In this document: positions 59,513-60,856 of the stretch, piece by piece | How positions within the stretch are numbered: position 1 is the first letter of the stretch | Layout: each line of letters opens with the position of its first letter | Notes under the pieces: model-generated | Database searches by the model: none | Told to the model about the DNA's origin: nothing | The model's input: only the letters and a program-made list of their open reading frames with translations | Assembly: GCA_025517425.1 (NCBI GenBank) | Contig: JAOPJY010000002.1 | Coordinates: 434,001 to 498,000 of the forward strand | Reading direction: 5' to 3' | Source: Halobacteria archaeon AArc-dxtr1 | GTDB taxonomy: Archaea > Halobacteriota > Halobacteria > Halobacteriales > Natrialbaceae | Length of the DNA stretch: 64,000 bases | Program-made: the position numbers and the translations under genes

Positions 59513-60856
59513 ATGACTGCTACGAAACGGGAACTGCTGGCGCTCTCGGGCGCTGTCCTCGTCGGCCTCGCCGGCTGTCTGGGCGACGAGCCAGACGATG
59601 ACCGGGACGGGAACGGAAGCGGTGGCGAAACGACGGTAGAGACGACCGCCGAGCGCATCGAGCCCGAGATCGAACCGGCAGCGGTAGATGCGCTCGTCGA
59701 GGGGAACACGCGCTTTGCGTTCGACCTGTTCGAGGCGCTCGTCGACGCCGAACCCGCCGCGGATCACTTCGTCTCGCCGTTTAGCATCTCCGCAGCGCTG
59801 GCGATGACCTGGGCGGGAGCCCGCGGCGAGACCGAACCGGAGATGGCCGACACGTTGCACTTCGCGCTCGATCAGGACGACCTTCACCCGGCATTCAACG
59901 CGCTCGATCGGGAGCTGGCAGAGCGAAGTGAGGGCGGTGGGGGCAGCGGGAACGAGGAAGACGACGGCGACCCGTTCGAGCTGAACGTCGCCAACGCACT
60001 CTGGCCTGCCGAGCGCTTCGACGTTCGCGAGCCGTTTCTCGAAACGATGGCTGACCACTACGGCGCCAGGCCCGTCTCCCTAGACTTCGGCGGCGATCCC
60101 GAGGGTGCGAGCGAGACGATCAACGACTGGGTCGACGACCAGACTGAGGGGCGGATCGACGACCTCGTGTCCCCGGGCCAGTTCGACGACCTGACGGCGA
60201 TCGTGCTGACGAACGCGATCTACTTCCTCGCGGGCTGGGCCGAGGAGTTCGACGAGAGTGGGACCCACGACGCCGCGTTCACGGCGCTCGATGGGACGAC
60301 CGACGAGGTGGCGATGATGTCCCAGACCGAGACGTTCCCCTACGCCGAGGTCGACGGCCACCAGCTCGTGGAACTTCCGTACGTCGGCGGGGAGACCAGT
60401 ATGGTCGTCCTCCTTCCCGAGGCCGGCGAGTTCGAGGCGTTCGAGGCGTCACTCGATACCGACCGCGTAGACGACCTGCTCGCGGAACTCGAGGAGCAAC
60501 ACGGCCAGGTCGAACTGCCTCGGTTCGAGATCGAATCCGACTACGAACTGCACACGGTGCTCGAGGCGCTCGGAATGGAGCGACCGTTCGACTCCCACGA
60601 GTCGGACCTCACCGGGCTCATCGATCGCGATGACCTGCACATCACCGACGTGGTTCACGAGGCGTTCGTCGCCGTCGACGAGGAGGGAACCGAAGCCGCC
60701 GCTGCGACCGCGGTGATCGGCGGCGCCGACTCGGCGCCACCGGCTGTAGAGTTCGAGCTGACTGTCGACCGACCGTTTCTGTTCCTGATCCGCGATCGGC
60801 CGACCGATTCGGTGCTCTTCCTCGGACGGGTCGTCACGGTTCCGAGGGATCCGTAA
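59513..60856 (+). CDS. Lipoprotein serpin with predicted Asp at P1
   Basis: This 447-residue serpin has a lipoprotein signal ending in the lipobox LAGC, an acidic/Ser/Gly linker and a full serpin domain starting NTRFAFDLFEAL. The reactive loop reads EEGTEAAAATAVIGGADSAPP. Aligned to alpha-1-antitrypsin without gaps (SIPPEVKF against SAPPAVEF) it gives P1-P1' as D406-S407. The small residues in the hinge indicate an inhibitory serpin. An Asp at P1 suggests a target protease that cuts after Asp. Confidence 0.88.
   Translation: MTATKRELLALSGAVLVGLAGCLGDEPDDDRDGNGSGGETTVETTAERIEPEIEPAAVDALVEGNTRFAFDLFEALVDAEPAADHFVSPFSISAALAMTWAGARGETEPEMADTLHFALDQDDLHPAFNALDRELAERSEGGGGSGNEEDDGDPFELNVANALWPAERFDVREPFLETMADHYGARPVSLDFGGDPEGASETINDWVDDQTEGRIDDLVSPGQFDDLTAIVLTNAIYFLAGWAEEFDESGTHDAAFTALDGTTDEVAMMSQTETFPYAEVDGHQLVELPYVGGETSMVVLLPEAGEFEAFEASLDTDRVDDLLAELEEQHGQVELPRFEIESDYELHTVLEALGMERPFDSHESDLTGLIDRDDLHITDVVHEAFVAVDEEGTEAAAATAVIGGADSAPPAVEFELTVDRPFLFLIRDRPTDSVLFLGRVVTVPRDP

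Follow-up and report, generated by a model that had tools for sequence, protein, structure and literature searches.

A predicted surface serpin of a haloarchaeon with Asp at the likely P1 position, and an acid-Ser-x-Pro pattern in the loops of its relatives

The window (the whole stretch of 64,000 nucleotides that was analysed) encodes a lipobox-bearing serpin whose bait bond is most likely Asp406-Ser407, to judge from the loop length and a conserved motif. A preliminary description had singled out this Asp. That observation is true, yet the protein belongs to an already known kind: the fold and the mechanism are those of an ordinary serpin, and the specificity is mildly unusual. The acid-Ser-x-Pro pattern across the family of haloarchaeal serpins is of more interest than the single case of Asp406. 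The features of the gene are listed in Table 1.

Table 1. Features of the window serpin gene, in window coordinates
Feature	Position	Strand	Evidence
Serpin gene, 447 aa	59513..60856	+	ORF, translation starting MTATKRELLALSGAVLVGLAGC...; Pfam PF00079, E=1e-109, 367.6 bits, profile positions 2-368 of 370
Predicted lipoprotein signal peptide, ending in lipobox LAGC (aa 19-22, Cys22), KR where Tat RR is usual	59513..59578	+	Sequence
Acidic low-complexity linker from the predicted lipid anchor to the serpin domain	59579..59671	+	Sequence
Serpin domain, aa 64-441	59702..60835	+	Pfam; AlphaFold model; Foldseek match to antithrombin, E=8e-41
Gly/Glu/Asp-rich insert, poorly modelled	59936..59965	+	pLDDT <50, model residues 89-98
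Hinge of the reactive centre loop, P17-P9, EEGTEAAAA	60680..60706	+	Inhibitory motif ExGTEAAAA (PMC8233489); P15, P14 and P8 invariant in 124 distinct loops
Reactive centre loop, P17 to before DRPF	60680..60766	+	Sequence; pLDDT <50 for aa 403-415
Asp406, predicted P1	60728..60730	+	Agreement of the 17-residue count with the S-x-P anchor
Ser407-Ala-Pro, predicted P1'-P3', conserved S-x-P motif	60731..60739	+	S-x-P in 85/124 distinct haloarchaeal and 9/85 methanogen loops

The full-length domain scored 367.6 bits against a curated cut-off of 27 for PF00079 (MEROPS I4). The AlphaFold model of aa 54-447 was built from a shallow alignment of six rows and reached a mean pLDDT of 75.9 and a pTM of 0.77, while the single-sequence model reached a pLDDT of only 35. 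Foldseek matched the model to antithrombin, conserpin and PAI-1 at E<=1e-37, with TM (query) of 0.82-0.87. Promoter and terminator scans, which are bacterial in design and were applied here to an archaeal host, found nothing.

A lipobox was present in 118 of the 132 serpins of the set, and RR stood ahead of 117 of these. As for the marks of archaeal Tat lipoproteins, the window serpin has the lipobox with its Cys and lacks the twin arginine, in whose place KR is found. Some Tat signals tolerate KR. The signal suggests that the protein is likely exported, and it would most likely be lipid-anchored outside the cell. Among the lipobox-bearing serpins sampled, the window serpin was the sole exception with KR in the export signal (59513-59578). 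Its paralog in the same genome (L002) has a twin-Arg signal, and the lipobox is absent.

The window loop reads E390-EGTEAAAATAVIGGA-D406-S407-APPAVEFELTVDRPF. Counted from Glu390 (P17), Asp406 is the 17th residue and falls at P1, with Ser407 at P1' and Ser-Ala-Pro-Pro following the Asp. The same count gave the P1 residue in three PDB chains (a slash marks the bond before the serine): Met in 6ee5, whose loop is that of antitrypsin (EEGTEAAAATFLEAIPM/SIPP), Arg followed by Ser in conserpin (...EIVPR/SPP), and Arg in 8gxv, the best profile match (...VVMQLR/SAMP). The lipoprotein signal, the small-residue inhibitory hinge, which equals the consensus ExGTEAAAA, and the prediction of D406 at P1 with Ser at P1' in the preliminary description were all recovered. 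The gap-free loop alignment to antitrypsin given there fared less well: the 17-residue count agrees with it, but HMMER alignments put gaps inside the loop stretch, and past SAPPAVEF the window loop exceeds that of antitrypsin by 3-4 residues. The register was hence based on the 17-residue count and the S-x-P motif. Structure prediction of the loop, which had been proposed as a check, gave a pLDDT <50 at aa 403-415; the P4-P10' region was poorly modelled, the register was neither shifted nor proved, and the scissile bond is not fixed by the model.

Of the features expected of an inhibitory serpin, the hinge ExGTEAAAA is present and about 17 residues separate P17 from P1, where P1 itself is assigned by count and S-x-P anchor. 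Loops longer by one or two residues destabilise the complexes up to a million-fold, and loops shorter by one or two are tolerated at lower efficiency (PMC6379291), so that a 17-residue loop ending at Asp406 would be fully compatible with inhibition. Asp at P1 of one protein is weak evidence alone and could be due to chance, because Asp and Glu make up 11.2 and 12.1% of this protein (together 24% of its mature part). The argument therefore rests on conservation in relatives.

Serpins were found in 117 of the 392 genomes of the order. The sample comprised 133 haloarchaeal serpins, including that of the window, with 124 distinct loops; the scan of genome contigs yielded only one partial bacterial serpin. 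Where S-x-P stood near P1' (85 of the 124 loops), the residue before the serine was acidic in 57 (67%; Glu in 46, Asp in 11). The acid share was 31% at the preceding residue, 3.5% at the one before that and 1% on the far side of the Ser; related rows in these counts are not independent. On the tree, the residue before the Ser changed 25 times and the place ahead of it 47 times. The acid is thus concentrated at one place beside a conserved serine and is not loop-wide, which argues against the view, taken up below, that it is an ordinary halophile substitution.

Two loop lengths up to the serine were found, 16 residues in 56 loops and 17 residues in 29. By the 17-count, the acid lay at P2 in 44 of the 56 shorter loops, and in the longer ones at P1 in 13 and at P2 in 5 of 29 (acid at P2 in 16- versus 17-residue loops, Fisher p=9e-8 with kinship ignored); thus the acid tracks the serine and not the count. 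The comparison of P1 across haloarchaeal serpins, which the preliminary description had proposed, gave a divided answer. Anchoring on S-x-P supports an acidic residue, but the strict 17-count places Ser at P1 in 61, Thr in 26 and an acid in 22 (18%) of the 124 loops, and 18% does not exceed the share of D+E in the window protein. An acidic P1 can therefore be claimed for the family only with the serine as anchor. Taking the serine as P1' would give most haloarchaeal serpins an acidic P1, and going by the 17-count would give mostly Ser or Thr. An acidic P1 would accordingly be read as recurrent in these serpins on condition that the 16-residue loops likewise have Ser at P1'. The window serpin is among those in which the count and the serine anchor coincide.

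The nearest relative (L017) has the loop GVVMQP.D/SAPL. The paralog L002 (G000:C2:98605-99726), the second serpin of the genome, has GVEMVE.D/SGPA, with Asp-Ser at the predicted P1-P1', and its clade (4 rows, support 100) consists entirely of D/S[AG]P loops in which P2-P3 vary. D-S-[A/G]-P is retained in L017, in L002 and in this clade, while P2-P5 are variable. Asp before Ser is no speciality of the window serpin, since the acid-Ser pair occurs in both serpins of its own genome and in many relatives. The window serpin itself sits on a long branch (0.58) without a close orthologue, and in the 392-genome survey a serpin was absent from three other genomes of the same genus.

For comparison, 85 distinct loops were taken from methanogens and further families of the same phylum (L142-L231). 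Their hinge is the same as that of the window serpin, and they differ in P1, which was mostly Gly, Lys, Thr, Ala or Ser and acidic in 5 of 85. Nine of these loops carried S-x-P, some of them as S-A-P after P1, and seven of the nine were in the 17-residue register. The residue before the serine was Lys in 4/9 (e.g., GVVVNL.K/SAP) and acidic in 2/9. The occurrence of K/SAP in the canonical register of these relatives supports Ser as P1'. An acid before S-x-P was commoner in the haloarchaea (57/85 vs. 2/9, p=0.01), and halophile acidity at large contributes to this excess in some measure.

Among described proteins, the haloarchaeal "serpin family protein" entries (e.g., Nmag_2110 of Natrialba magadii, PMC3403918) resemble the window serpin in fold and hinge; most have a lipobox, and S-x-P follows an often acidic residue in them as well. 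Plasmid copies of haloarchaeal serpins are found in Halolamina and Haloprofundus. The window serpin differs from the other haloarchaeal serpins in its best identity of 56-58% within the sample, its 17-residue loop with Asp and its KR for RR. In 8gxv (proteinase inhibitor I4 serpin), the gap-free count from the hinge to R/SAMP ends at the same place as D/SAP of the window serpin; the difference lies in its P1 Arg.

Prokaryotic serpins are widespread, and the natural targets of most are undescribed. For the window serpin, we lean with moderate confidence toward a canonical suicide inhibitor at the cell surface, cleaved at Asp406-Ser407, that traps an extracellular serine protease cutting after Asp or Glu. 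The serpin fold, the hinge, the lipobox, the register by count and the conservation of the acid-Ser dipeptide were observed, and from these we infer anchoring, inhibition, scissile bond and target. The exported protein would be held by lipid outside the cell, and the bond at which a protease would attack its exposed loop is most likely Asp406-Ser407. After this attack the hinge would insert into beta-sheet A, and the enzyme would be trapped covalently. As an acidic P1 appears to be recurrent in haloarchaeal serpins, the target would most likely cut after Asp or Glu, and its source could be the same cell or neighbours or predators in the brine. If the acid-Ser pair is the reactive bond, haloarchaeal serpins would indicate an extracellular protease specificity new to brine communities and could be used as covalent bait to isolate that protease. 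If it is not, the family would display plain halophile acidity in a surface loop.

Secreted serine proteases are the likeliest targets, and an Asp/Glu-directed protease, as implied by an acidic P1, is possible. No protease was found among the immediate neighbours in the window: a thiolase lies upstream, and small membrane proteins together with an AMP-binding enzyme lie downstream. No recurrent protease was found near the window serpin and 28 related loci among the 25 most-matched neighbour families, with 114 further families beyond these. The genome encodes one secreted S8 subtilase (L134), with a signal, all catalytic motifs (Asp/His/Asn/Ser) and carboxypeptidase-regulatory-like repeats, and one HtrA-like Tat lipoprotein (L135). 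Neither is known to prefer Asp, and the searches of this genome gave no protease with a known preference for Asp or Glu.

The presence of L134 also fits a possible but doubtful alternative, namely that the serpin is a broad guard against halolysin-type subtilases, for which P1 matters little, the cut falls close to P1 or at more than one bond of the loop, and Asp is an ordinary acidic substitution of halophiles. S8 subtilases occurred in 339 of the 392 genomes of the order, in 115 of the 117 serpin-bearing against 224 of the 275 serpin-free genomes (two lists compared by reading, with kinship ignored), which is in favour of such a guard, but two serpin-bearing genomes had no S8. Subtilisin and chymotrypsin are targets of two archaeal serpins, Pnserpin and Tkserpin (PMC8233489), and cleavage at several loop bonds is reported for miropin in the title of a 2015 paper cited in PMC5297747. 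Halolysin SptA is described as broad in specificity; however, its assay substrates had Phe and Leu at P1 (PMC3158780). The retention of D/S throughout the L002 clade likewise speaks against a loop in which P1 matters little.

The suicide-inhibitor reading can be extended to the whole group: haloarchaeal serpins would have moved to an acidic P1 (acid/Ser-x-Pro) and would defend the cell surface against a protease of hypersaline communities that cuts after Asp or Glu, perhaps the orphan caspase-like activity of haloarchaea. We consider this extension improbable. It is more improbable still that the window serpin is non-inhibitory, or a decoy whose loop is cleaved merely as a substrate. Its P4 Gly, the sole Gly at P4 among the 124 distinct loops, may slow insertion and its branch is long and divergent, but the hinge is fully consensus over P17-P8 and the loop counts exactly 17 residues.

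Caspases and granzyme B favour a P4 residue that GGAD, the P4-P1 sequence of the window serpin, does not offer, and the analogy to CrmA, caspases and granzyme B drawn in the preliminary description found no support. Peptidase_C14 was not found in the genome at E<=10, in a search whose control rang, and C11 was absent from it; across the 392 genomes of the order C14 gave no match, but the control of that Pfam search was equally silent. CrmA, Serp-2 (P1 at Asp294; PMC3458838) and SERPINB9, which act on caspases or granzyme B, share the serpin mechanism and an acidic P1 (Asp or Glu) with the window serpin, where Asp406 is predicted. They act inside cells and differ in P4-P2; the GGA of the window serpin is unsuited to caspases or granzyme B, and no caspase-family target turned up in the C14 search of the genome. 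The least likely target is a haloarchaeal caspase-like protease: extracts of Haloferax volcanii strongly cleave LEVD, VEID and IETD substrates, with the gene of the enzyme undescribed (PMC3615174), this species has serpins (the control of the serpin survey) and the acid-Ser motif is family-wide, but the activity is from cell extracts whereas the serpin is predicted outside, its P4 is not hydrophobic, no C14 gene was found in its genome and serpins occur in only 117 of the 392 genomes of the order. A CHAT match below the cut-off was seen in the genome of the window serpin, within an open frame of 706 aa (L232, G000:C1:1083946-1084200).

Some further observations concern the serpin genes of the sample. 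At L087, L012, L031, L029 and L014, two or three serpins stand in tandem, with loops differing at P3-P1, as expected from duplication with a change of specificity. Four serpin genes (L138-L141) lie on contigs of 14 to 136 kb that IMG/VR classes as viral. In L067 (G106:C1:1266611-1267759), one TGA splits the serpin frame, which likely reflects a pseudogene or a sequencing error.
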